Below the pieces are notes generated by a model. That model worked only from the letters and a program-made list of their open reading frames with translations. It was not told the DNA's origin and searched no databases. From Ruminococcus sp. (GTDB lineage: Bacteria > Bacillota > Clostridia > Oscillospirales > Ruminococcaceae), in assembly GCA_017450925.1 (NCBI GenBank), contig JAFSSS010000066.1, positions 1 through 37,781 on the forward strand: 37,781 bases of DNA, written 5' to 3'. The position numbers and the translations under genes were made by a program. This document shows, one piece after another, positions 1 through 37,781 of this stretch. The stretch's first letter is position 1. Every line of letters begins with the position of its first letter.

Positions 1-138
1 CATCTGCTTGCCAGCTTTCCGTCATATTACCCAAATTCTCCTTGACTTGCGTCAGCAAGCCTGCGTCGAATTTAGGCAATCTGACGAAAAGCTGGACGGC
101 GCATCTGATGCACAGGGGTCGTGCGGTGTTGCCTTAAA
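1..138 (-). repeat. Dispersed inverted-repeat element, copy A (truncated by window start)
   Basis: This matches the reverse complement of the complete copy at 8436-8615 and keeps the terminal sequence GTCGTGCGGTGTTGCCTT at its right end. About 40 bases of the element lie beyond the left edge of the window. Compared with the complete copy, this one restores a C-G pair in the long internal stem (CCAGCTTT in element sense, where the other copy has CCAGATTT). That is what a structure under selection would show. The short reading frame across it (8-229) is not a gene. Confidence 0.9.
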
Positions 139-3892: not shown

Positions 3893-4008
3893 GAATAAAT
3901 AATAAAGAAGAAAGAATAAACAAGGTGTCCGCTTTGCGGACAATTCAAAAATTATTGCCGCAGGCAATACCTTCATTTTTCTTTCTTCTTTTTTCTTTAT
4001 TATTTATT
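3893..4008. terminator. Bidirectional terminator region built on a long AT-rich inverted repeat
   Basis: Purine-rich AATAAATAATAAAGAAG (about 3893-3918) and pyrimidine-rich CTTCTT...TTTATTATTTATT (about 3979-4008) are near-complementary arms. Between them sit two perfect hairpins: TGTCCGC-TTT-GCGGACA (3926-3942) and TATTGCC-GCA-GGCAATA (3953-3969). The region lies between the convergent ABC operon and the GH9 gene and gives a T-rich tract on both strands. The right arm overlaps the last codons of the GH9 gene. Confidence 0.65.
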
Positions 4009-6733
4009 TTTTGCTGCTTTTGTTCAGCTTGACCATTTCAAAGACGAATACCTCTACAGAGATAAGAACTATAACTCCGGCGACCACGATCAGCACGATT
4101 ATCCACGGCTTCATGCCGCCCTCATCTTCAGCATCCTTGGCGCTGTTATCGGAGGCGGCTTTTTTGCTGTCGGACTTGCCGGAGGTCTTGGCTTCGTCAG
4201 CGCTGCGCTTAGCCTCGGATTCGTCGTAGGTCTTGTCCTCGTTGGACTTGCCCTCGCCGCCGTTGTTTTCCACTCCCGCCGAGGAGCCGGTGCTGCCGGG
4301 CTTTATCTCCGAGGCCGTGCCGGTAACGAACATCGAGAGCCACGCCAGCGAGGCGTTCCAGTTTATGGTACACTCGTTGACCGACCACGCCTCGACATTG
4401 TCAAGATAGCACTTCATCGGCGCGATGCTGCCCTTTTTCCAGCCCATGCCCTGTACCCATGGATCCTGCATACCGGAGTTGGGGCCGCCGGACATAACGC
4501 CGCAGGGCGCCTTGGGAAAGCTCTTGTCGATCTGATACGACCAGTAGCGGTGGTGCGGATATTCGGTGGTGTGAGTGCCGTAGCCGGTAACGTAGGAGTA
4601 ATCCATAGCGTTGCGGCCGAGCAGATAGTCCAGTCCGCCGATAGCGCCGTCAAGGTATTTCTCGTCCTTGGTCATCAGATAGCCGTAGGCAAGCACGATA
4701 GCATTGTCCGCCACAAAGGAGTTCGAGCCCCAGATATAGCCCTTGTCGCTGTCGTTGTAGCTAAGGGTGGACTGGCCGTAGGGCTGGCCGTAGCCCTGTC
4801 CCTCCTCCAGCTTGAGAAAATGGTCTGCCGCCTTGGTTATCGCATCGGTGACGATCTCCTTGTCCTCGCCGTCAAAGCGGTCGAGGTTGAGCGCCGCGCT
4901 TAAAGTAGCCAGTGCGCCCACGTTGCCCCAGTCAAAGGAGCCGACAGTGTCAACGCTCTCGCCGCCGCCCAAGGAGGTGGGAACGGACAGGAAGAACTTG
5001 TTTTCCGTCGTCTCGTCGAAATAGTCCTCGTCGCCGGTGGTGATGAAAAGCTCCATTGCCGCCCAGCAGAACTCGTCCTCAACGTTATTGTCGCCGTAAG
5101 CGCCGCCGCCCACAGATTCGTCCAGCGGAGCGAACATCTCGGGGTGCTTCTTCGCGGCCTCGTAGGTCAGCTTTGCTTTTTCAAGACACTCCTCGGCAAA
5201 GGCATCGTCAATGCCCTTCCAAAGCCTTGCCGCTTGTGCCGCGCAGGCCGAAAGGTTAAGCGTTGCCGCTGTTGTGGGGGGCTTGATTATACGCTTTTTG
5301 TCATCGTCGGCAGGGGCAACTCCAAGGCCTGTCCAGGTCTCGTCGTGAGCCTTGTGATAAGCCATGCCCGCATATTCGCCGGAGCTGACGATCATTTTGA
5401 ACATCCACTCCATTTCGTAGCGTGCCTCGTCAAGCAGATCGGGATAGCCGTTTGAGTTCTCCGGCAGAGCCATTGTGCCGTCAGCAAAGGCCTTTTCAAG
5501 CCCGAGAGCCTTGGCTGTCTCATACTCATTCTGCATGAGCCAGAGTGAGAAGCCGCCGTTGACCACATACTTGCCGTGGTCGCCGGCATCGTACCAGCCG
5601 CCGGTAACGTCCACCGAGCCGGAGGAGCCGCTGTAGCCCCAGGTCTGCTGTATCTCTGCATTGTCAGAGGGGTGACCCGCCGCCCGGGCGAGGGCGTTCC
5701 TGTCGCCGGAGGTGATGTACTCGCTCTTTATCTCGATCCCGGAGCGGTTCTGATAGAAATAGTTCAGCGAGTCATACACCAGCGATGACCATATCTCGCT
5801 GTCGCCCACCGTGAACTCCCGGCTCTTGGCGCCGTTGGCGGCCTCAAGGTGAAGCTTGCCCCTGCCGTCGAAGCCGGTGAAGTCGATGATATGCACCGTA
5901 TCGCCTGAGTCTTCATCAAAGCCGAAATACTCGCTCTTGCCCTCCCATACGGACTTGCCGCTTTCGTCGATAAGCTCGACATCCACGCTGTCCTTGTCGG
6001 TGCAGAGCATGGTGGCCTTCTTAACGCGGCCGTCGAAATAGCCCACCTGGTCGGTGAGTATCTCGGCACGGCTCCACTCCTCGGGAGCGACATAGTCGTT
6101 CTCGTCCGAGGTAAGGTCGATAAGTGAAAGATTGTCAAAGGTGATGACAGTCCCCTCCGGGAAGCAGTCGCCCTGGGTGTACTGCCCGTCGCCGCCCAGG
6201 TGGAAGGCCCACTCGGCAACATCCACATTCTGTCCGGCGGTAAAGGTCAGATCAACGGTCTTGGTCTCGTTGGCGCCTATGGGGATAAGATCCCAGTGAG
6301 AGTCGAGGTCATAGCCGTTTGACATATTGTGCCACACCTCGACGGTGCCCTCAAGGTTGCCTATCTTGGTGTAATACTTTCCGGCATTTGAGGGGGTTAT
6401 CTGATACTGCACCCGGTACTGATGCCCGGATACTATCTTCAGTCCCCTGTGGCGGAACTGACAGTCCCACCTGTCCTCGCCGCCGCGCGAGGCACCTCCC
6501 GGGCTGACGATCTTTACCTTGTAAACGCCGTCGGCTATCTCAAACTCCATTTTTCCGGCGGTGGATTCAACGATATGCCAGGGCAGGCCAACGCCGTTTT
6601 CAAAATCCGTCTGACCCAGCTGCTGACCCGCATATGCCGTCAGCGGCTGCAGGAGCTGTGCAGGCAGCGCCGTGACGGTCATCAGCAGTGCTGCCCCCGC
6701 CGCGGTCATTCGTCTTATCAGTTTATGCTTCAT
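4004..6733 (-). CDS. Membrane-anchored CBM4/9-GH9 endoglucanase
   Basis: This is a predicted secreted beta-1,4-glucanase of 909 residues. In order: a signal peptide (residues 1 to ~36); a CBM4/9-like carbohydrate-binding module (~38-210); an Ig-like domain typical of GH9 enzymes (~222-305, starting near EILTDQVGYF); the GH9 catalytic domain (~310-805); a charged Ser/Glu/Lys linker; and a C-terminal membrane helix (~877-898) ending in a basic tail KLNKSSKK. Catalytic residues are visible: the aspartates of WYDAGDHGKY (D382, D385), the YPHHRYW motif, and glutamate 787 in VNECTINWN. There is no dockerin or LPXTG motif, so surface attachment is through the C-terminal helix. The start is ATG at 6733, with GGAGGA 7 nt upstream; the in-frame ATG at 6751 lies upstream of this ribosome binding site. 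The gene stands alone with its own promoter. Confidence 0.93.
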   Translation of the reverse strand: MKHKLIRRMTAAGAALLMTVTALPAQLLQPLTAYAGQQLGQTDFENGVGLPWHIVESTAGKMEFEIADGVYKVKIVSPGGASRGGEDRWDCQFRHRGLKIVSGHQYRVQYQITPSNAGKYYTKIGNLEGTVEVWHNMSNGYDLDSHWDLIPIGANETKTVDLTFTAGQNVDVAEWAFHLGGDGQYTQGDCFPEGTVITFDNLSLIDLTSDENDYVAPEEWSRAEILTDQVGYFDGRVKKATMLCTDKDSVDVELIDESGKSVWEGKSEYFGFDEDSGDTVHIIDFTGFDGRGKLHLEAANGAKSREFTVGDSEIWSSLVYDSLNYFYQNRSGIEIKSEYITSGDRNALARAAGHPSDNAEIQQTWGYSGSSGSVDVTGGWYDAGDHGKYVVNGGFSLWLMQNEYETAKALGLEKAFADGTMALPENSNGYPDLLDEARYEMEWMFKMIVSSGEYAGMAYHKAHDETWTGLGVAPADDDKKRIIKPPTTAATLNLSACAAQAARLWKGIDDAFAEECLEKAKLTYEAAKKHPEMFAPLDESVGGGAYGDNNVEDEFCWAAMELFITTGDEDYFDETTENKFFLSVPTSLGGGESVDTVGSFDWGNVGALATLSAALNLDRFDGEDKEIVTDAITKAADHFLKLEEGQGYGQPYGQSTLSYNDSDKGYIWGSNSFVADNAIVLAYGYLMTKDEKYLDGAIGGLDYLLGRNAMDYSYVTGYGTHTTEYPHHRYWSYQIDKSFPKAPCGVMSGGPNSGMQDPWVQGMGWKKGSIAPMKCYLDNVEAWSVNECTINWNASLAWLSMFVTGTASEIKPGSTGSSAGVENNGGEGKSNEDKTYDESEAKRSADEAKTSGKSDSKKAASDNSAKDAEDEGGMKPWIIVLIVVAGVIVLISVEVFVFEMVKLNKSSKK

Positions 6734-6765
6734 AATACTTCCTCCGAACAAAAATATACAGATAT

Positions 6766-6926: not shown

Positions 6927-8435
<1,509 letters not shown>

Positions 8436-8615
8436 TTAAGGCAACACCGCACGACCACTGTGCATCAGATGCGCTGTCCAGATTTTCGTCAGATTGCCTA
8501 AATTCGACGCAGGCTTGCTGACGCAAGTCAAGGAGAATTTGGGTAATATGACGGAAAGCTGGCAAGCAGATGATGTGCAGAGGCGTTAGCCGCGGGTCGT
8601 GCGGTGTTGCCTTAA
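8436..8615 (+). repeat. Dispersed inverted-repeat element, copy B (complete, 180 bp)
   Basis: Perfect 21-bp terminal inverted repeats lie at 8436-8456 and 8595-8615 (TTAAGGCAACACCGC... and its complement). Inside are 28-nt arms at 8478-8505 and 8535-8562. They pair at 23 positions, three more are G-U wobbles when read as + strand RNA, and two are mismatches. An apical hairpin CTTGC-TGAC-GCAAG lies at 8514-8527. The element carries no reading frame of note. It sits between the guaB stop codon and the guaB terminator. It resembles a MITE or a structured intergenic RNA repeat; I do not recognise a named family. Confidence 0.92.
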
Positions 8616-8635
8616 CGGCTTGGCAAAGAATAAAT

Positions 8636-8675
8636 ACCCCTCTGCGGAAATGCTCCGCAGAGGGGTCTGTTTTTT
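8636..8675 (+). terminator. Rho-independent terminator of guaB
   Basis: A 13-bp perfect stem (ACCCCTCTGCGGA / TCCGCAGAGGGGT, loop AATGC) is followed by six T (8670-8675). The repeat element separates it from the guaB stop codon. Its T tract touches the end of the convergent transglutaminase gene. Confidence 0.9.
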
Positions 8676-10869
8676 ATACGGGAGTCTGTGCCGGAGCTGC
8701 CTGCGGCTTTGCCTTCGGCCTCCTTCTAAGATATTTGTAGATGCCTTTGTAATGGGCATAGGCCTTGGAATAGCTTTCGTCCTCCAGCGGGACGCTGCCG
8801 AAGCAGGTGCGCTCAAAGAGATGTGCTATGGGCGCGATATCCGCCTTGTTATGCCGGGCGGCATAGTCCGTCAGCATAGCTGCGGTGTAGGAGCGCAGGT
8901 CGTCGCCGCCGGAAAGCTCCAGCAGCTTCTTCACTCTTGCATACAGCCGTATGATGCGGTCATCGCCCTTAACAAAGCGCTGCCTTATCCTAAAGACCAG
9001 CTCCAGTATGCGGTCGAACATCATAACTATCATCACGAAGATGACCACGCCTATCAGCACGAAGAGCCGGCTAAAATACTGGGTGATAGAGGAAATGCTG
9101 AACCCGCCGCCGCTGCCGGTGGTTTCGACCATATAGCCGGGGATAGTGGGGTCAAAGACCAGCCAGCCGGCACCGGCAATAAACACCTCAACATAGGCGT
9201 GAGCGTGAGAGTCACGGACGGCTATGCTGCCGTCCTCGGCACGTTCATAGGCCGAAAAGCCCTCGACGTACCTTGCGGGCAGGCCGACTATCCTTGCCAT
9301 AATAGCCATAGTCGTGGCAAAGCTGGTGCAGGAGCCTGTCTTGTGGTCGAAGAGGAAGGCCTCCAGCGAGGTATCCTCCGGCTCAAAATCCGCATCGTAG
9401 GTGAAGCCGCCGGTCTCGTAGTAAAGCTCCAGTGCCTTGGCCTTCTGATAATCCGTGGTCTTGCCGGCTATGATGCTTTGGGCAAGCTCTGCGATACGCG
9501 GAGAGTATTCAACGGCGCCGGTATAGTATTCAGCGGCCATTTCATACTGCGAAATCAGGGCGTAGTCGGTAAGGTCGCCGTTCTCCTCGGCGGCCTTGAG
9601 CATGGAGTAGTATTTATCCCCGTCCATGTTCAGCCGTGAGGCGAAATCTATATATGCATCCGTTTCCGGATAATAGCGGACGGTATAGTCATAATCAGCA
9701 TCCACATTCTTGACCATTATCTCGCCGTCGCCGTACATATAATACTTGTCGTTCAGCGACTCGCTGAAGGTCTTGGCGATAACGCCGGAGGGAGTAGGCA
9801 CATACACGCCCTTGAACTTATCGTCGAACACCCGGAAGGAGCTTTCGGTCATCTGCGGCAGAGTGAAATACGCAGGGTCAAGGCCGTATTTGGTATATTT
9901 CCCCGTATCTGCCAGCGCCTTGAGGTCGTTATAATAGCGGCTGCGGTTGATATTCACGCTGGCATAGTAATCGAAGGTGGTATATTTTTCCGCATTTCTG
10001 TCGTTGTGCCAGGTGTCGTCATAAAAGCTGTCGTAAGCCTGTCGCTTGAGATAATATACCTGCTGCGGATCATCCGACTCGCAGTAGAACAGTATCTCTC
10101 CCGTAAAGCTGCCGCCGTATCTTGCCGAGGAGGTCGAGCTGTAGCGGGAGTAGGTGTTTTGAGAGTTGTTTAGGGGGGTGATGTCAAAGGCGTGGGAGTC
10201 CCTTTCCAGCACCGACCTGACCTCCGGCTTGGGTATCAGCATAGCAAAGGCTCCCGCCGCGGAAACGAACAGCGCCACGGTGACGATATAAGCGATATCG
10301 TTCACCGACCTTACCTCGACGGACTTGTTCTCCTTCAGCCTGTTATGGACAACGATAGCCAAAAACAAGGTGAACATCAGCGTTACCTCATAGCCGCTCA
10401 TGATGTCTGCACGCTTGGCATAGATCACAAACGGGAACAGCATACAGAGCATAAGTCCCATGCTTCTGAAACGCACCTGCGTGAAGTAGTAGATGATCGA
10501 GATAAGAAAGAACCCTCCCGACAGATAGACCATAAGGAAGTAATAGATGTTGAAGCCGGCGGTGTCACGGTTAAGGTAGAACCAGTCAGTGAAGATAACA
10601 AAAGTGTTATACCAGCCGGCGCTCATCAGCCGCGAGCCTGCGAACATAATGCCTGCGAACATCGCCGTATAAAGCAGCATACCCAGAAAGCGGCGCTTCC
10701 TGATAACATCAAACAGCACAAACAGCCCCACCGATGCAGCTGCGAAAAGCAGCGTGAACAGTGTGGTCTGCTCATAATAATAGCACTTGATGACCATGCG
10801 GGCGATAACCGTGCCCAGCAGGATCGGAAGAGCGCTTTGGCTGATAAAATCTATAGCTTTCTGTTTCAT
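8674..10869 (-). CDS. TgpA-like membrane transglutaminase
   Basis: The protein has about 730 residues: several N-terminal membrane helices, a large loop domain, a transglutaminase-like domain, one more membrane helix (~605-630) and a C-terminal cytoplasmic tail with a DUF4129-like position. The papain-type triad is visible: C514 in GSCTSFATT, H557 in HAHAYVEV and D573 in LVFDPTIPG. It is the last gene of a MoxR-DUF58-transglutaminase operon, a widespread trio thought to act on the cell envelope. Its substrate is unknown. I chose ATG at 10869, preceded by AAAGG about 13 nt upstream. A GTG at 10884, two bases after the DUF58 stop, is an alternative that adds five residues but lacks a spaced ribosome binding site. 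Confidence 0.88.
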   Translation of the reverse strand: MKQKAIDFISQSALPILLGTVIARMVIKCYYYEQTTLFTLLFAAASVGLFVLFDVIRKRRFLGMLLYTAMFAGIMFAGSRLMSAGWYNTFVIFTDWFYLNRDTAGFNIYYFLMVYLSGGFFLISIIYYFTQVRFRSMGLMLCMLFPFVIYAKRADIMSGYEVTLMFTLFLAIVVHNRLKENKSVEVRSVNDIAYIVTVALFVSAAGAFAMLIPKPEVRSVLERDSHAFDITPLNNSQNTYSRYSSTSSARYGGSFTGEILFYCESDDPQQVYYLKRQAYDSFYDDTWHNDRNAEKYTTFDYYASVNINRSRYYNDLKALADTGKYTKYGLDPAYFTLPQMTESSFRVFDDKFKGVYVPTPSGVIAKTFSESLNDKYYMYGDGEIMVKNVDADYDYTVRYYPETDAYIDFASRLNMDGDKYYSMLKAAEENGDLTDYALISQYEMAAEYYTGAVEYSPRIAELAQSIIAGKTTDYQKAKALELYYETGGFTYDADFEPEDTSLEAFLFDHKTGSCTSFATTMAIMARIVGLPARYVEGFSAYERAEDGSIAVRDSHAHAYVEVFIAGAGWLVFDPTIPGYMVETTGSGGGFSISSITQYFSRLFVLIGVVIFVMIVMMFDRILELVFRIRQRFVKGDDRIIRLYARVKKLLELSGGDDLRSYTAAMLTDYAARHNKADIAPIAHLFERTCFGSVPLEDESYSKAYAHYKGIYKYLRRRPKAKPQAAPAQTPV

Positions 10870-13160: not shown

Positions 13161-14933
13161 TCAGCTTTTCCAGCCGTTTATCCTTTTCTGAAGAGAGGTG
13201 ATATCCTTCATACCGACCTCTCCGTCGCCGTTGACATCAAGAGCAGGCTCGCAGACCTTAACATTCCAGCCGTTGATATAGCGCTGGTAAGCGGTTATGT
13301 CCTTCATATTCACCTCTCCGTCATTGTTGAGGTCGCCGGGAATAAGATCATCGATCAGCTCATAGTCAAAGCCGTTGTCTTTGGCATACTGCTCGCCAGC
13401 GGTATCCTTGAAGCAATAGATCCTAAAGTCATTGTCCTTGTAATATTCTTCGCGATCCTCTTCATAGATGTAGCCGAATGCTTCAGCACCGATCTTTGTA
13501 ACAGCTTTGGGGATAGTTACGCTTTTAAGATCCGAGCAGTCAAAGAAGGCTCTGAAGCCTATATTTGTAACACTGTCCGGGATAGCTATTTTTTTTAGGC
13601 TTATGCAGTCGAAGAAAGCGCCGTCGCCTATACTTGTAACGCTGTCCGGGATAGTTACGTTTTCAAGGCTTAGGTCAAAGTAGAAAGCTCCTTGGCTTAT
13701 GCTTGTAAAAGTATCCGGTATAGTTACGTCTGTAAGGCTTGTGCATTCTAAAAAAACAAAAACGCCGAAGTGTGTAACGCTGTCCGGGATAGTTATGCCT
13801 GTAAGGCTTACACAGCCGTCAAAGGCACGATCGCCGATGTAAGCGACACTGTCAGGGATAGTTACGTCTGCAAGGTTTTCACAGCCTGCAAAGGCAGCAT
13901 GGTCGATGAAAGTAACACCGTCCGGGATAGCTATGCCTGTAAGGCCTGTGCAGTCGCAAAAAGCACTGTCGCCGATGCGTGTAACACTGTCCGGGATAGT
14001 TATGCCTGTAAGGTCCTCACAGTATTCAAAGGCAGAATCGGTGATGATCGTAACACCGTCCGGGATAACCACCTCACCCTCGCAGTTCTGACCGTCAATA
14101 AGAAGACTGCCCACGATCACAAGCGGAGATTTTTCCTTTAGCGCATCGAGCCAGGGAGTATTCCAAAAGGCATCGGTGCCGATGCTGGTAACGCTTTCCG
14201 GGATAGCTACGCTCGCAAGACTTGTGCAGTCGCAAAAGGCATCAGAGCCGATGCTGGTAACACCGTTCGGAATAGTTATGTCCGTAAGACCTGTGCAGCC
14301 GCAAAAGGCTAAATTACCGATGCTTGTAACGCTGTCCGGGATAGTTATGTTCGTAAGACCCGCGCAGTCGATAAAGGCTGAACGTCCGATGCTTGTAACG
14401 CTGTTTGGGATAGTTATGCTTGTTTTAGTGGCTGGGCAGTGTAAAAACTCTGTTTTATCCTTATTGTAAAGCACTCCGTCAAGTGAGCAGTACACAGTAT
14501 TATCTGTATCGACATTTATGCTTTCAAGGCTTGTGCAGCCGGAAAAAGCAGAGGCATCAACGTCCGTAGCGCTGCTTGGGATAGTTATGCTCGTAAGGCC
14601 TGTGCAGTTGCAAAAGGCACTATAGCTGATCCACTCAACGGTGTTTGGTATTGTTACGCTCGTAAGGCTTGCGCAGTCTAAAAAGGCTGCAGTTCCGATG
14701 CCTCTGACGGTATATCCGTCGAGCTCCGAAGGTATCGTTATTTCAGTATCACTGCCTGTATAGCCGTGGATGGATATCTCTCCGTCGCCGCAAGGGCTGT
14801 ACTCCCAGTCGCCGGAGGTCTCAGCGCTTGCCTGCACTGTCGTTCCAAAGTCAAATTCGCCCTCCGGCAGAGCCGCCGCTGCGCCGAATATCACGGCAAA
14901 TGCGCAGGCTGCCGCCAAAAGTCTCTTTATCAT
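13161..14933 (-). CDS. Secreted BspA-like leucine-rich-repeat protein with C-terminal dockerin
   Basis: The protein has 590 residues. It carries a signal peptide (~1-37), then about sixteen BspA-type repeats of roughly 23 residues with the pattern SVTSIG-xx-AF-xx-C-xx-L-xx-ITIPD, broken by two short islands, and a type I dockerin at 534-590. The dockerin has two calcium-loop repeats, DLNNDGEVNMKD and DVNGDGEVGMKD, each followed by a helix ending in INGW. BspA repeats are usually linked to adhesion. The dockerin implies non-covalent docking onto a cohesin scaffold, but no cohesin is encoded here. GGAGG lies 7 nt before the ATG. No promoter is obvious in the 74-nt gap after glgA, so partial read-through of the glgA terminator is possible. 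Confidence 0.92.
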   Translation of the reverse strand: MIKRLLAAACAFAVIFGAAAALPEGEFDFGTTVQASAETSGDWEYSPCGDGEISIHGYTGSDTEITIPSELDGYTVRGIGTAAFLDCASLTSVTIPNTVEWISYSAFCNCTGLTSITIPSSATDVDASAFSGCTSLESINVDTDNTVYCSLDGVLYNKDKTEFLHCPATKTSITIPNSVTSIGRSAFIDCAGLTNITIPDSVTSIGNLAFCGCTGLTDITIPNGVTSIGSDAFCDCTSLASVAIPESVTSIGTDAFWNTPWLDALKEKSPLVIVGSLLIDGQNCEGEVVIPDGVTIITDSAFEYCEDLTGITIPDSVTRIGDSAFCDCTGLTGIAIPDGVTFIDHAAFAGCENLADVTIPDSVAYIGDRAFDGCVSLTGITIPDSVTHFGVFVFLECTSLTDVTIPDTFTSISQGAFYFDLSLENVTIPDSVTSIGDGAFFDCISLKKIAIPDSVTNIGFRAFFDCSDLKSVTIPKAVTKIGAEAFGYIYEEDREEYYKDNDFRIYCFKDTAGEQYAKDNGFDYELIDDLIPGDLNNDGEVNMKDITAYQRYINGWNVKVCEPALDVNGDGEVGMKDITSLQKRINGWKS

Positions 14934-30772: not shown

Positions 30773-33700
30773 TCAGTCCTTCTTCTTATCTTCGGCCTTC
30801 TTGACGCCGTCGGTGGTGTAGATGAACTTGACCTTACCCTTCATGCCCTCCTGCTTGCCGGAGAAGCTTGAATAGTCTTTGGAGGCGTTCACCATAGCCG
30901 TGATGCGGTTGACCAGCTCCTTTGCGTCGCCGCCGAGAGCGTCAACGATCTTGTCGATGCCCTCCTTCTTGAATTTCTCCATGCCCTCCTTAAGGGTCTT
31001 GGAGCCTTCCTCCAGCTGGCCTGCGCCGTCAGAGAGCTTATCCGCGCCGTCCTTCAGCTGACCGAGGCCGCTGTCAAGATCATTGCAGCCCTTGGAGAGG
31101 TCAGCCGCACCGGAAGCCAGTGTCCCGGTGGAGTCGGATATGGTCTTTAGGCCGCCCTTGAGATCGTTTGCGCCGGTGGAAAGCTGTGCAAGGCCGCCGT
31201 CCAGTTGAGTACCGCCTGCGCTTAGCTTGCCTATGCCTGCGTCGAGGGCTGCAATGCCGTCGATAAGAGCGCCGCTCTTTGAAGCAAGCTGACCGATGCC
31301 GCCGCTTAATGTCCCGGCGCCGTCAGTTACCTGCTTTGCGCCGTTTGCAAGCTCAACGGAGGAGCCGGAGAGCTTTGAGGTCCCCTCTGCCAGCTGTGAA
31401 GCGCCGGAAGAGATCTGTCCCAAAGCTGTCTCGAGGTCGCCGGAGCCTGTTACCAGTGCAGACATTCCCGTGTCAAGCTTTGTGATGCCGGTGATAAGTG
31501 CGCCGCTCTTGGCCGCCAGCTCGTCAATGCCGCCGCTAAGAGTGCCGGCACCGTCAGACACCTGCTTTGCGCCGCCTGCAAGCTGTCCCGCCGAGTCGGA
31601 GAGCTGGGTCGTTCCGCCCGCCAGCTGGGCGGCTCCGCCGGAGATCTGTCCGAGAGCCGTATCAAGCTGTCCTGCACCGTCTGCCAGCTTGGTAAGACCG
31701 GTGTTAAGGCCGATTATGCCAGCGATGATATCGCCGCTCTTTTCGGCAAGGGAGTTGATGCCGGTGCTAAGTGTGACAGAGCCCTGTGATACCGAGGATG
31801 CACCTGCCGCAAGAGTCTTTGCCGACTCGGAAAGCGTGCCTGTACCCTCTGCAAGAGCCGCCGCACCCTCCGATACGGTCTTTGTTCCTTGAGCCGCCTC
31901 GGCAGCACCCTGTGAAAGTGCGGCTGTACCGCTCTTCAGTGTGCCGCCCTCCTTCATCGAGGCCGCTACCTGCTGCTGACCCGCGATCGTCTGACGCAGG
32001 GTCTCTATCATAACGCCCAGCTGGGTCTTCTTTGTCTCGTCGGTCTCGGCGGCGTAAAGCCCCTCAAGGCCTGTGAGTATCTGCTGATTGGCGCCTACTG
32101 TGGTATCAAGCGCCGAGGCTGCTTGATCCACGCCTTGATCCACGGCCGCCGCACCCTGCGAAAGGGTACCCATGCTGTCGCTAAGCTGCGAAGCGCCTGC
32201 GGAAAGCGCCTTGGTGTTGGTGTCGAGAGTGTCGGCACCCTGCGAAAGCGCCGCTGCTCCGTCAGAGACCTGCTTGGCACCGTCAGATACCTGCTTGCCG
32301 CCGGCAGCCAGCGTGCTGACGCCTCCCGAAAGTACAGGCGCCGCCTCTGCGATCTTTGCCGTGCCGGCCTGTGCCTCTTTAAGACCCTTGCTAAGATCTG
32401 CCGAGCCGCTCTTTGCCTGTGCGGCGCCGCCGGCAAGGGTCTGCATATTGCTGTTGATAGTCTTTGCGCCCTCGGAAAGCTGTCCCGAACCGTCAGCCAC
32501 CTGCTTAGCGCCGTCGGCTACCTGCCTGCCGCCCTCGGAAAGCTTGCCGATGCCCTCCTTCAGCTCGGGCGATGCAGCGTTCAGCTGCTCGGTGCCGGCT
32601 TTAGCCTCCTTGAGGCCCGCTGTCAGCTTGCCTGCGCCCTCGGCTGCCTGTGCAGCACCAGAGAAGAGCTTCTGCATATTTTCATCCAAAGTCTTTGCTC
32701 CCTCGGAGAGAAGTGCAGCACCGTCAGAGACCTGCTTTGAGCCGCCGAACAGCTGCGAAGCGCCTATGTTCAGCTCACCGATGCCCTCTGCCAGTGCGGG
32801 AGCGCCGCCTGCCAGCTGGCCGGAGCCGTTCTTGGCATCGGCAAGACCCGCCGCCAGCTCGGCCGAACCGCTCTTTGCAGAGGCAAGACCGTCAGCCAGC
32901 TTTGCAGAGCCGTCATAGGCAGTCTTAGTGCCTTCAGAGAGCTGGGATGCACCGTCGGCCAGCTTTTTGCCGCCGTCGGACAGCTTTCCCGAGCCGTCCT
33001 TGGCATCGGCTGCACCCTTGGCAAGCTCCTTGCTGCCGGTATTCAGCTCCTTGATGCCGTCATAGAGCTTAGCTGTGCCTTCTACAAGCTGGTCTGCCGC
33101 ATCGGTGAGTTCATCCAGCTTCTCTCGCAGCTCCTCGATCTTGTCAGTATGCTCCAGCTCCAGATCGGAGAAAAACTGGTTGGTGGCCAACGTCATAGAG
33201 GTCGTGGTCTCAAAATCGGTAACGTCCGCGGTGATCTCGAAATACTCGGGAAGCTCGATATCCAGCTTTTCGGTGCTGATGCCGAGGCTGTCGCCGAGGC
33301 CGGGCATCGCAACGCCCACCGCGATAAGTCTCGATCCGTCGGAGATCACCTTTCCGTTGGTAACGGTGACGTTCTGGAACTTCTGCGAATCAAGGATCGT
33401 TCCGCTTGCCATAAGGAAGGGCACGCAGACCTCGTATTCCTTGCCGTCAACCGTCTGCTTTGAGGTAAGGGTGTTGGTGTAGTCGTAGCGGATAGTGACC
33501 TTTCCGCTCTTGCCCGCGATCTCCTCTGCGGACATCTCCCTGCCGTCAAGGAAATATGTGACCTTAACGGTTACGGGCAGCTCCTTATCGGTCTTGCCTT
33601 GATAGTAGATATCGTTTCCCTTGGCAGCCCAGGTAAGGCTGTCGCCGCTTTGGGCGAACTCCTCGTAGCCCTTGACGTTCTCGATGTCCTTCAGCTCGGA

Positions 33701-33970
33701 AATATCGCCGATGCTGTCCAGAGCGCCGGTGTTTTTAAGCCAGTCGCTGACGATGATCTCCTTTACGTCGTTCCCGCTGGAATAGAGTACATAGACGGTC
33801 TCGTCCTTTTCGGGGTCGCCCTCGCCAGCCTTGCGCTCAACCGTTACGGCAGCCTTTGTTGATACCGGCTTGGTATCCTCCTCGTTATCTTGATTTACGG
33901 CATAAGCCACGGTAGCACCTGCCGAGATAAGTATCGCCAGAACTGCCGCCATTACCTTTGTATATTTCAT
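30773..33970 (-). CDS. Giant XXXLXXG heptad-repeat envelope protein
   Basis: A 1065-residue exported protein. It has an N-terminal membrane anchor or signal (~1-25), a beta-rich domain (~40-270), then about 100 heptads of the form x-x-x-Leu-x-x-Gly (~287-995), and a short lysine-rich C-terminus. The repeats show a second-order period of exactly 11 heptads (77 residues): units start at K412, K489 and K566 (KQVSDGA or KQVADGS) and again at G746, G823 and G900. A segment near residues 640-690 with few glycines interrupts them. YhgE/Pip-type proteins share these heptads but also have C-terminal membrane helices, which are absent here. The start is ATG at 33970 after GGGAGG; it overlaps the MMPL stop (ATGA), so the two are translationally coupled. 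Confidence 0.9.
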   Translation of the reverse strand: MKYTKVMAAVLAILISAGATVAYAVNQDNEEDTKPVSTKAAVTVERKAGEGDPEKDETVYVLYSSGNDVKEIIVSDWLKNTGALDSIGDISELKDIENVKGYEEFAQSGDSLTWAAKGNDIYYQGKTDKELPVTVKVTYFLDGREMSAEEIAGKSGKVTIRYDYTNTLTSKQTVDGKEYEVCVPFLMASGTILDSQKFQNVTVTNGKVISDGSRLIAVGVAMPGLGDSLGISTEKLDIELPEYFEITADVTDFETTTSMTLATNQFFSDLELEHTDKIEELREKLDELTDAADQLVEGTAKLYDGIKELNTGSKELAKGAADAKDGSGKLSDGGKKLADGASQLSEGTKTAYDGSAKLADGLASAKSGSAELAAGLADAKNGSGQLAGGAPALAEGIGELNIGASQLFGGSKQVSDGAALLSEGAKTLDENMQKLFSGAAQAAEGAGKLTAGLKEAKAGTEQLNAASPELKEGIGKLSEGGRQVADGAKQVADGSGQLSEGAKTINSNMQTLAGGAAQAKSGSADLSKGLKEAQAGTAKIAEAAPVLSGGVSTLAAGGKQVSDGAKQVSDGAAALSQGADTLDTNTKALSAGASQLSDSMGTLSQGAAAVDQGVDQAASALDTTVGANQQILTGLEGLYAAETDETKKTQLGVMIETLRQTIAGQQQVAASMKEGGTLKSGTAALSQGAAEAAQGTKTVSEGAAALAEGTGTLSESAKTLAAGASSVSQGSVTLSTGINSLAEKSGDIIAGIIGLNTGLTKLADGAGQLDTALGQISGGAAQLAGGTTQLSDSAGQLAGGAKQVSDGAGTLSGGIDELAAKSGALITGITKLDTGMSALVTGSGDLETALGQISSGASQLAEGTSKLSGSSVELANGAKQVTDGAGTLSGGIGQLASKSGALIDGIAALDAGIGKLSAGGTQLDGGLAQLSTGANDLKGGLKTISDSTGTLASGAADLSKGCNDLDSGLGQLKDGADKLSDGAGQLEEGSKTLKEGMEKFKKEGIDKIVDALGGDAKELVNRITAMVNASKDYSSFSGKQEGMKGKVKFIYTTDGVKKAEDKKKD

Positions 33971-36099
33971 GATCTTGCCTCCCATGTATTATCGTTCATA
34001 TATGTTGTTCTGCTCCCGCGGAGATATCTCTTCGGCTTGATGCCCATTGTAGTGGCGCAGATGATCTTGTCAAGCGCCATAAGGAAGGAGGGCAGCGCGA
34101 AGATGACCGTGAACATTGAGATTATCGCGCCCCGTGCCAGAAGTATGCACAGCTCCGAGATAAGTCCTATCTCCGAATAGAGGCCTACGCCGAAGGTGGC
34201 GGCGAAAAAGCCGAGAGCCGATACCATTACCGACTTGATAGATGCCGCCAGCGCCGTTGTCACTGCCTGATGCTTTTCTGCACCGAGGCTCCGCTCCAGC
34301 TTGTAGCGGGTGGTCATCAGTATCGCGTAATCCACCGTTGCGCCCAGCTGTATGGTGCCGATAACGATAGATGCTATGAACGCCACCTTTGAGCCGGTGT
34401 AGGTGGGTATCGCCATATTCACGAAGATAGCGAACTCGATGACCGATACCAGTATGACCGGCAGCGAGATGCTCTTCAGCACGAACAGGATTATTATGAA
34501 TATCGCACCGATCGACATGAAATTGACCACCTTAAAGTCACGGTTGGTGATGTCGATCAGATCCTTGGTGGCAGGCGCCTCGCCTATCAGCATAGCCTTG
34601 TCGCTGTACTTGGCGATGATGTCCTGTATCTCTTCACACTGCTCGTTCACCGCATCCGAGGCCACCTCGTATTCCGAGCCTACCATGATAAGCTTCCAGT
34701 CCTCGCTTTCCAGCAGGTCGGTTATCTTGTCGGGGATAACATCTACAGGTATCTTTGAGCCTATCAGCGAATCCAGACCCATTACCATTTTGACTCCGTC
34801 CACCGCCTCGACCTTTTCACACATCTGCCGTGTTTCCTTCGGCGAGAGGTCTGTGGGCACCAGCAGCATATGGGTCGAGTTCATGCCGTACTCCTCTGCC
34901 AGCTTGGTGTTGGCTACCACGCTGGCGAGATCCTTGGGCATGGTGGCGTCCAGCTTGTAGTAAAGCTTGTTGTTGAAGTTGCCGTATATCGCCGGCGAAA
35001 GCAGGATGAAGAACACGGTAACGAAAACCCCCGCGTGCTTGGTTATGAACCTTGCAGCGCCGTCCATTGAGGGAAGTATATCTCTGTGACGGGTCTTGGT
35101 GATCGCTCTGTCGAAGAAGAGTATCATCGAGGGCAGCACTGTGATGCAGCAGATAACTCCGAACACAACGCCCTTTGCCATTACGATGCCGATGTCAAGT
35201 CCCAGCTTGTAGCTCATGAAGCACATTGCAAGGAAGCCCGCCACCGTAGTGATCGAGCTGCCGACCACCGAAACTATCGTTCCGGCTATTGCCTGCCCCA
35301 TTGCCTTTTCGTTGTCGCCGGGGAACTTCTCCTTGTTTTCTTGATAGCTGTGATAGAGGAAAATGGAGTAGTCCATGGTAACGCCCAGCTGCAGCACCGC
35401 CGCCAGCGCCTTGGTAAGGAAGGATATCTCGCCGGCGATGAAATTCGTGCCCAAGTTATAGACTACCGCCATACCCACGCTTATCATGAAGAACACGGGG
35501 ATAAGGAAGGAGTCCATTGTTACCGCCAGCACCAGCGATACCAGCGCCACGGCGATTATGATATACATCAGCGTTTCGCTTTCGGCAAGTATCTTCATAT
35601 CGTCCGAAATAGCGCTCATGCCGCTGACAAAGCACTGCTCTCTTGATATCTCCCTGATCTCATCTACCGCAGCAAGGGTGCTGTCGGCAGCGGTGGTGTC
35701 CTTGAAGAATACGATCAGCAGTGTTGAGTTGCCGTTGTCGGCATTGAAGAAGTCGTAGAGCTTCTGGGGAAGGATCTCCTTCGGGAGGGTTATGTCTGCG
35801 ATAGTGTCGTACCACAGCACGCTTGCCACGCCCTCAACGGCCTCGATCTTCTTTTTGGTCTCGACCACCTGCTTATCCTTCATGCCGTCCAGCATCACCA
35901 TTGAGAAGCCGGCCTTGCCGAAATCCTCACTAAGGATATCCTGTCCCTTCATGGTCTCGATATCCTTGGGTAGGTATGAAAGGATATCGTAATTGGTTCG
36001 GGTGGATATATAGCCTATTGCACAGGGGATCAGCAGCAGCACGCTAAGTATAAGTATGATGACCCTGTGCCGGACTATGAAGTTTCCGAACTTCACCAT
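33967..36099 (-). CDS. MMPL/RND family transporter
   Basis: A 710-residue membrane protein with 12 predicted helices in two homologous halves, each with one helix followed by a large extracellular loop and then five helices. The conserved helix-4 aspartates of the two halves are D243 (MDYSIFLYHSY) and D590 (VDYAILMTTRYK). MMPL proteins export lipids, siderophores or drugs using the proton gradient. In many Bacillota the extracellular loops or a partner carry XXXLXXG heptads; here they are a separate protein encoded downstream with a 4-nt overlap. A divergent TetR gene and four palindromes upstream suggest repression lifted by a ligand, perhaps the exported compound. Confidence 0.92.
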   Translation of the reverse strand: MVKFGNFIVRHRVIILILSVLLLIPCAIGYISTRTNYDILSYLPKDIETMKGQDILSEDFGKAGFSMVMLDGMKDKQVVETKKKIEAVEGVASVLWYDTIADITLPKEILPQKLYDFFNADNGNSTLLIVFFKDTTAADSTLAAVDEIREISREQCFVSGMSAISDDMKILAESETLMYIIIAVALVSLVLAVTMDSFLIPVFFMISVGMAVVYNLGTNFIAGEISFLTKALAAVLQLGVTMDYSIFLYHSYQENKEKFPGDNEKAMGQAIAGTIVSVVGSSITTVAGFLAMCFMSYKLGLDIGIVMAKGVVFGVICCITVLPSMILFFDRAITKTRHRDILPSMDGAARFITKHAGVFVTVFFILLSPAIYGNFNNKLYYKLDATMPKDLASVVANTKLAEEYGMNSTHMLLVPTDLSPKETRQMCEKVEAVDGVKMVMGLDSLIGSKIPVDVIPDKITDLLESEDWKLIMVGSEYEVASDAVNEQCEEIQDIIAKYSDKAMLIGEAPATKDLIDITNRDFKVVNFMSIGAIFIIILFVLKSISLPVILVSVIEFAIFVNMAIPTYTGSKVAFIASIVIGTIQLGATVDYAILMTTRYKLERSLGAEKHQAVTTALAASIKSVMVSALGFFAATFGVGLYSEIGLISELCILLARGAIISMFTVIFALPSFLMALDKIICATTMGIKPKRYLRGSRTTYMNDNTWEARS

Positions 36100-36388: not shown

Positions 36389-36997
36389 ATGAGCATCTTG
36401 ACCAAGGTCGATATGAAAAAGAAGAACAAGGAAAGCTCGCTGCTGAACACAGCCTTTGAATACTTCACCACCAAGGGCTTCAGCAAGACCTCTATCACCG
36501 ACATTGCCAGCAAGGCAGGTGTGGGCAAGGGCACCTTCTATCTTTACTTCAAGGACAAGTATGACATCCGCAACAGGCTGATCGCCCGCAAGAGCGCACA
36601 GGTGCTGACCATAGCCGCCTATGCGCTGGAGACTCACAGCGAGGAGATGTCCTTTGAGGACAAGTTCATTTTTCTGATAGACAACATCGTCAACCAGCTG
36701 AACGAGAACCAGTCCCTGCTGAATTTTATTTCCAAAAACCTTAGCTGGGGAGTTTTCATGGCAGCACTGACAGCCCCCGCTGAAAACGACATGGATTTCA
36801 GAGATGCCTATCTCAAGCTTATCTCCGAATCCGAACATCCCGTCCGCGACCCGGAGATGATGCTGTTTATGATCGTGGAGCTGGTATCTGCCACCTGCTA
36901 TTCCGCGATACTCTACAAGGAGCCCTGCAGCCTTGAGGATTTTAAGCCCGAACTCTACCGGGCTATCCGCGGTATGATCCGGCAGTTCTCTGCATGA
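36389..36997 (+). CDS. TetR family transcriptional regulator
   Basis: The protein has about 200 residues: an N-terminal helix-turn-helix of the TetR type (TTKGFSKTSITDIASKAGV then GKGTFYLYFKDK) and a helical ligand-binding domain of the AcrR-like length. It is divergent from the MMPL-heptad operon and most likely represses both, through the four palindromes in between. The start is uncertain. The first ATG (36389) touches AAAGG and has no spacing. A TTG at 36398 has AAAGGA 8 nt upstream and fits best. An ATG at 36413 has AAGG 5 nt upstream. The longest form is given. Confidence 0.9.
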   Translation: MSILTKVDMKKKNKESSLLNTAFEYFTTKGFSKTSITDIASKAGVGKGTFYLYFKDKYDIRNRLIARKSAQVLTIAAYALETHSEEMSFEDKFIFLIDNIVNQLNENQSLLNFISKNLSWGVFMAALTAPAENDMDFRDAYLKLISESEHPVRDPEMMLFMIVELVSATCYSAILYKEPCSLEDFKPELYRAIRGMIRQFSA

Positions 36998-37572: not shown

Positions 37573-37575
37573 TGT

Positions 37576-37781
37576 TTAGGCAACACCGCACGACCCCTGT
37601 GCATCAGTATGCGCAACCTCAACTGGCGTTGAGGCACAGATTTTCGTCAGATTGCCTAAATTCGACGCAGGCTTGCGAGCGAAGTGTGCTTCGCTTTGCG
37701 CAACGTCAAGGAGAATTTGGGTAATATGACGGAAAGCTGGCAAGCAGATGATGTGCAGAGGCGTTAGCCGCGGGTCGTGCG
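37576..37781 (+). repeat. Dispersed inverted-repeat element, copy C (cut by window end)
   Basis: Same orientation as the copy at 8436-8615 and longer. The extra sequence forms two perfect hairpins: CCTCAAC-TGGC-GTTGAGG (37617-37634) and AGCGAAG-TGTG-CTTCGCT (37678-37695). The second extends the apical stem of the element, with TTGCG/CGCAA below it. The rest is nearly identical to the other copies. About 11 bases of the right terminal repeat lie beyond the window. Confidence 0.92.

Follow-up and report, generated by a model that had tools for sequence, protein, structure and literature searches.

ERIC repeats have a palindromic hairpin form. Together with Correia, RUP and CIR, they are among the kindred small repeats reviewed in PMC2229807 and PMC10969869, the relevant sections of which are drawn on here. 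In these sections, ERIC/IRU (127 bp), found between genes in many enterobacteria, is a short MITE-like repeat, and its RNA, when co-transcribed, reportedly influences mRNA stability in an orientation-dependent manner (PMC2229807), and the Correia/NEMIS repeats of Neisseria are small elements whose RNA stem-loops are proposed RNase III substrates (PMC2229807, PMC10969869). RUP of pneumococcus is short and intergenic and has terminal inverted repeats (TIRs) and a TA target in common with the resident IS630-Spn1, with no other signature of structure or function reported in the section concerned (PMC2229807). For CIR of alpha-proteobacteria, which has two arms, a linker, a GANTC motif and uncertain mobility, a phylogenetically conserved RNA structure has been proposed (PMC2229807, same scope).

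The repeat analyzed here comes from a Ruminococcus genome of 2,028,882 bases in 83 contigs, and the window, i.e., the whole stretch of DNA analyzed, is one entire contig (C41; 37,781 nucleotides). By description, it is set apart from ERIC by its host, length and sequence, and it further differs in that an IS with similar TIRs was found, its target repeat is 4 bp long, its TIRs vary between families, its covariation was measured to be strand-specific, and its orientation is random whereas the mRNA effect of ERIC depends on orientation. Correia/NEMIS is likewise set apart by other hosts and sizes, RUP by IS630 and a TA target as opposed to the IS5 group and TTAA, and CIR by its two-armed build in contrast to one long hairpin with target duplications. 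With IS5-group IS (NF033581), the element shares the TIR type and the TTAA/TTAG-type 4-bp target repeats; however, it has no transposase gene, and its core is, by eye, no apparent internal deletion of such an IS, the ends alone being alike. A preliminary description of the window knew of no name for the repeat, and this still stands, as Rfam gave no match and full-text searches of the open literature, which mostly excludes subscription journals, yielded nothing on it. In the window, Rfam 15 gave no match at gathering scores, and at six loci it gave four weak hits (E 2.5-3.6), none over an element. A word count of the main text of PMC10969869 found no occurrence of 'Ruminococc', 'Clostridi' or 'covariation'. 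By anatomy, the element is a MITE, unusual in its conserved, strand-specific core and its exchangeable ends.

Anatomy of the complete element and its copies

The hairpin-forming repeat was found at 8436-8615 and reads as previously described, with one correction. Its perfect inverted repeat had been taken for a 21-bp TIR, but it actually consists of a 17-bp TIR and a 4-bp target duplication, the TTAA having been counted in because it is self-complementary; other copies have TCAA, GTAA, TTGA, TATG or CATA on both sides. The remaining element is short (172 bp), non-coding and bounded by 17-bp TIRs, as a MITE should be (Table 1).

Table 1. Positions of the complete element, its parts and neighbors, and the two partial copies in the window. 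A1 is the alignment of 172-bp copies described in the text.
Feature	Position	Strand	Remarks
Copy A, partial, inverted	1..133	-	Cut by contig start; TTAA follows at 134-137
guaB (IMP dehydrogenase)	6927..8435	+	ORF, named by eye and from the preliminary description; stop codon abuts the insertion
Left target-site duplication, TTAA	8436..8439	.	Exact 4-bp direct repeats in 84/115 two-flank copies
Complete element (MITE), 172 bp	8440..8611	+	+ is the better-folding strand; one of 42 A1 rows
Left TIR, 17 bp, GGCAACACCGCACGACC	8440..8456	+	Direct reading; ends of IS5-group element L238 closely similar
Structured core (A1 columns 19-153)	8458..8592	+	Long stem interrupted by internal loops, plus an apical and a small side hairpin
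Right TIR, 17 bp	8595..8611	+	Direct reading
Right target-site duplication, TTAA	8612..8615	.	As for the left duplication
Probable guaB intrinsic terminator	8636..8675	+	Now 3' of the insertion; stem 8636-8666 with T-run
Copy C, longer variant with extra hairpins	37579..37781	+	Cut by contig end; TTTA precedes at 37575-37578

The three copies previously counted in 37.8 kb are all present, but copies A and C are truncated by the contig ends and the total is far higher. At least 40 places of at least 137 bp occur in the same genome (40 of 111 candidates scored), and by our own count 34 of these 40 touch a contig end. Such breaks are expected where assembly fails at a repeat, and this also accounts for both ends of the window lying inside copies. 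Copy C had been said to be lengthened by two extra perfect hairpins rather than by random insertions. The hairpins can be seen by eye. In 31 longer complete copies, a set that omits copy C since its end is missing, insertions cluster at few positions, mostly in loops, and only some of the inserted pieces fold on themselves, in part as hairpins.

Shorter forms with target repeats also occur, down to 33 bp. Three elements of that length, each composed of two TIRs placed head to head and flanked by 4-bp target repeats (L090, 11203-11235; L228, 1875-1907; L237, 1503-1535), are among the smallest candidates for a transposon. At another locus (L353), copies at 804-975, 1152-1323 and 1501-1672 have the same orientation, lie ~348 bp apart and have near-identical flanks; this is a tandem array that includes flanking sequence.

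Elsewhere in the window, several genes were identified by eye. The product of 13161-14933 (-) is a BspA-like leucine-rich-repeat protein with a dockerin-like C-terminus of two repeats, which suggests a cellulosome-type organism, and that of 4004-6751 (-) is a large, secreted, GH9-like glycosidase whose C-terminus bears a membrane anchor rather than a dockerin. A 1070-aa protein with many short glycine/alanine-rich repeats (30773-33985, -) is encoded next to an MMPL-like transporter (33967-36099) and a TetR-like regulator (36389-36997).

Insertion sites, partner transposase and exchange of ends

The proposal that the repeat is a non-autonomous mobile element is supported by target duplications of 4 bp, one copy nested in another, an empty site in a paralogous sequence and an IS5-group IS with closely similar TIRs in the same genome. 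We examined the flanks of 118 TIR-bounded copies, no two of which are alike in both flank and sequence; 60 have a length of exactly 172 bp. Target-site duplication, as expected of a MITE, was evident among the 115 copies with two flanks: 84 have exact 4-bp repeats, 17 match at three of four positions and 14 at two or fewer. TTAA accounts for 63 of the 84 exact repeats, the rest being TATA, TTTA, TCAA, TTAG, CTAA, TATG, GTAA, CATA and TTGA, and exact 5-bp direct repeats were found in only 2 of 111 copies. At L226 one copy is nested inside another, each with its own target repeat (TTAG outer, CTAA inner). The filled site L231 has a paralogous empty counterpart (L223) that is 84% identical over 121 bases and carries a single TTAA. 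In 12 other genomes of the genus, the end of guaB could be located. Eleven of these relatives have at least 280 bases behind the stop codon, and in them no TIR occurs in the next 400 bases or before the locus runs out; the twelfth has only 4 bases there.

DDE transposases (PF01609) were sought in 16 genomes of the genus, four of which had matches. In the genome of the window, an intact ORF of 322 aa lies between TIRs in an element of 1107 bp overall with TTAG on both sides (L238), and these TIRs differ from those of the MITE at one to three of 16 positions. The L238 transposase has a DDE domain and belongs to the IS5 group (NF033581, E=1.6e-86, 290 bits vs. a cut-off of 140). Transposases of IS5_4 type with similar TIRs occur in two genomes, and a deleted IS copy of 660 bp (L239, in genome G012) has TTAA on both sides. 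When the L238 protein was used as query, any match at all was obtained in 6 of 18 genomes, and an intact ORF only in its own; a two-contig genome (G128) with 184 first-look element candidates, two of them scored, had no match to it. An autonomous partner with TIRs alike, although not identical, was thereby found in L238, and a second type in L423 (see below), both having IS5-group transposases between TIRs (NF033581, 290 and 292 bits; cut-off 140). Since an IS5-group IS with closely similar TIRs resides in the same genome, the element is most likely a MITE that has been moved in trans, as judged from these sequence comparisons.

Other candidate partners were rejected. PF13546 transposases, considered under an IS701 hypothesis, were found in none of 16 genomes. 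Among 14 copy-bearing genome entries, two of which (G016 and G324) look like one genome, YE71, six had PF01609 matches and none of these was flanked by a TIR pair of the 17-bp type; G359 has a single degenerate end. A composite of two elements around a transposase (L332) was set aside, as the transposase seems, by eye, to have separate ends of its own. Plasmid records gave no DNA match to the element. In genome G372, two contig ends (L316, L319) have an IS5-type gene start behind a TIR, 79% identical over 28 residues; these may stem from an IS present in several copies that dropped out of the assembly.

In other families, the core is retained while the TIRs are of unrelated types. In 72 order-level rows (12 antisense self-matches having been removed, some rows being from the element's own family and L403 being the same as L404), the core is kept and the TIRs include GGCAACACCGCAC, GGAAGCACTGATTAAATC, GGAACCTCTGAATAAAT, GGTTCAGGTGTCARAAG, GGCGTGTTCACATAAGC, GCCTATCCCGAAATAAG and GGGTACCTCTAAAAACCC, among others. 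Exact 4-bp repeats flank 23 of the 72, the ends being approximate as the rows were trimmed by the model. In the search concerning alternative TIRs, PF01609 matches were obtained in 13 of 22 genomes (G408 having been included inadvertently), and when the TIRs of the resident elements were sought around transposases in 12 of these 13, a clear pair was found only in G633. There the elements carry TIRs of the GGAACCACTGATTAAAT type, and an IS (L423) has ends of that type with at most three mismatches; its transposase (NF033581, E=4.2e-87) is 41% identical to that of L238, and its two flanks, TTAA and TTAG, make an inexact target repeat. A single matching end was found in G685, and the other genomes gave chance-like matches, neighboring elements or nothing. 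The core would outlive any one transposase by gaining new TIRs.

Fold and covariation of the core

The fold from end to end, described previously for the complete copy, was confirmed: the + strand reaches -111.7 kcal/mol (z -14.2), with none of 200 shuffles as good, and the complement, at -83.4 kcal/mol (z -9.5), also beats all 200 of its shuffles. Of 137 complete copies, 93 are exactly 172 bp long, and 42 representatives of these with less than 93% identity were aligned (A1). The alignment has 172 columns and a mean identity of 75%, and it is free of gaps partly by choice since only 172-bp copies were taken. Changes on both sides occurred in 46 of the 68 predicted pairs of A1 and in 65 of 68 in an order-level set of 65 rows found with the model. 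Pairing holds in 96.8% of 2856 cells in A1 (shuffles, 83.7%; partners slid, 34-46%) and in 91.4% of 4210 cells in the order-level set (shuffles, 65.4%), although pairing is favored in both, since A1 was restricted to 172-bp copies and the order-level rows were aligned to the model.

Since kinship can produce spurious counts of pair changes, columns were simulated along a tree built with FastTree in a home-made, R-scape-like test that used 60 null alignments and a threshold of E 0.05 across the full set of 14,196 column pairs. For the 42-sequence set, this gave 11 hits, i.e., 8 of the 68 structure pairs and 3 adjoining them. With 93 sequences, comprising family and order copies (107 rows, reduced to 93 by filtering on gaps and identity), there were 38 hits, of which 30 are among the 68 structure pairs, 8 adjoin them and none lies elsewhere. 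The check on covariation proposed earlier was thus answered by significant covariation beyond phylogeny in 30 of 68 pairs, as is expected of a conserved structured RNA, in a home-made test in the spirit of R-scape.

The earlier claim that wobbles confined to one strand point to a selected structure was also upheld, by this covariation and by a strong bias in A1, in which 291 cells are wobbles on the + strand and 28 on the - strand. In the order-level set the counts are 402 and 63, or 336 and 52 in the core alone. Such a one-strand bias indicates selection for a single-stranded fold of the + strand, most simply as RNA. G-T pairs form in single-stranded DNA too, and folded as DNA the + strand, the only one so folded, reaches -58.2 kcal/mol (z -11), so RNA is the simpler reading and is unproven. 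Considering that cells are not independent events, substitutions private to single copies within near-identical clusters of at least four were also counted, 9 at sites unpaired in the consensus being set aside. Although numbers are small, 15 private transitions made wobbles while 4 broke pairs (p=0.019), and 18 of 42 private substitutions fell in loops against 21% expected (p=0.0017). A1 contains the internal loop 5'-CGCAG/5'-CAAG twice. Of these two loops, the apical one has unpaired bases GCA that are 86-97% conserved in the order-level set, and the other is less conserved. Mean conservation in that set is 0.67 in paired and 0.68 in unpaired columns, so that conservation alone does not mark helices.

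Distribution, gene context and possible roles

A search for further copies in the source genome and its relatives, as advised in the preliminary description, revealed many beyond the three. In the genus, 9 of 16 genomes had matches, the source genome included. Among the matches listed, the records comprise MAGs of Ruminococcus (for the most part from ruminants) and of uncultured Clostridia, together with an isolate, Ruminococcus sp. YE71, whose recorded lineage is Oscillospiraceae. At the family level, matches were found in at least 67 of 396 genomes and at least 24 of 126 genera. With the covariance model, matches were found in at least 68 of 394 genomes and at least 41 of 169 genera at the order level, and in at least 5 of 398 genomes at the phylum level, two of them outside the order. 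All of these are lower bounds, as two candidates per genome were scored in the family search and seven, with strict filters, in the order and phylum searches. The two matches outside the order have modest scores (46.1 and 39.6 bits), a different TIR and, by eye, the same apical motif. Copies were also present in five records filed as phage (L286-L290, human faeces) and two contigs filed as virus (L412, L413, IMG/VR), which may be bacterial DNA.

For gene context, 276 of 345 elements were kept after removal of duplicates, and 6 of these 276 overlap a gene as called by our own simple caller, which may miss broken genes. Orientation relative to neighboring genes is random: among the 117 elements that have a gene within 600 bp on each side, 35 are co-directional with both, 35 are opposed to both, 25 lie between divergent and 22 between convergent genes. 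Nor does the quality of the structure differ between sense and antisense contexts (27 vs. 28 copies, p=0.88). All copies had been said to lie next to terminators; this is not special, terminator-like hairpins being found within 90 bp of 81 of 137 copies and of 163 of 411 random positions, which were not matched for being intergenic.

In our view, the comparisons above make it very probable that this repeat is a MITE, a non-autonomous transposon of the IS5 group, and that it carries a conserved RNA fold. The resident IS transposase would bind its TIRs in trans, and the element would insert at TTAA-like sites, mostly intergenic. Where transcribed, its + strand would fold into a hairpin of ~170 nt whose internal loops are conserved; this would probably be a protein-binding RNA of benefit to the lineage of the element and not to the neighboring gene. 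An ordinary MITE might conceivably show covariation with no role for RNA, through upkeep of its palindrome at the DNA level by hairpin-templated correction, cruciforms or the needs of the transposase. In long palindromes, one arm can serve to correct the other, a transposase requires matching terminal pairs, and both strands do fold better than shuffles. However, such upkeep is blind to strand, while wobbles stand at 291 to 28 (336 to 52 in the order-level core), recent private transitions show the same tendency (15 to 4), and the GCA of the apical loop is conserved although unpaired; this explanation is therefore quite improbable. We regard as very improbable a hairpin of one strand of single-stranded DNA acting in replication-linked transposition, as in IS200/IS605. 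G-T pairing in DNA and the DNA fold of the + strand would fit it. IS200/IS605 elements, however, use a Y1 transposase and are not known to leave target duplications, while true 4-bp duplications and a DDE-type transposase with similar TIRs, neither of them a trait of IS200/IS605 or REP/RAYT, were found here; random gene orientation, a weak proxy for the direction of replication, also argues against it.

The preliminary description had proposed a stabilizer of RNA 3' ends, and more generally the element could be a stabilizer, processing site or terminator of the gene upstream, comparable to ERIC and Correia, RNAs of which are reported, in the section of PMC2229807 concerned, to alter mRNA or mark it for processing. 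The complete copy does sit in the sense direction between the guaB stop codon and its probable terminator. Random orientation of the flanking genes (35/35/25/22 of 117) and equal pairing in sense and antisense contexts nevertheless argue against an RNA that acts on its own mRNA; the stabilizer is thus not supported, since integrity of pairs is independent of the direction of read-through, and we consider action in cis unlikely. Moreover, full-length + RNA needs transcription from outside, yet orientation is random, which would be unexpected if the RNA acted at each site. There are two possible readings: selection on those copies that give rise to new ones, or action in trans by a few transcribed copies. 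The latter, a small RNA from few copies that controls transposition or a host process while the rest are passengers, is a possibility that we entertain with some reserve. It would explain why selection is strand-specific although insertion orientation is random, and how the core has persisted while its TIRs changed; however, recent private changes also look constrained, albeit in small numbers, and a scan of one region, 8380-8700, found no sigma-70-like promoter. A bolder and rather speculative proposal, which we hold only tentatively, is that the core represents a new class of mobile noncoding RNA gene in an order of gut clostridia and beyond, which would act in trans, hop between IS5-group transposases and swap TIRs.

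Bacterial MITEs are usually viewed as decaying IS debris. That one strand-specific fold has been kept across many genera and through changes of TIR suggests that it is worth something to the element or to its host. The MITE is frequent in rumen and gut bacteria, whose assemblies it breaks, and it is a manageable system in which to ask why structured RNA is carried by mobile elements.
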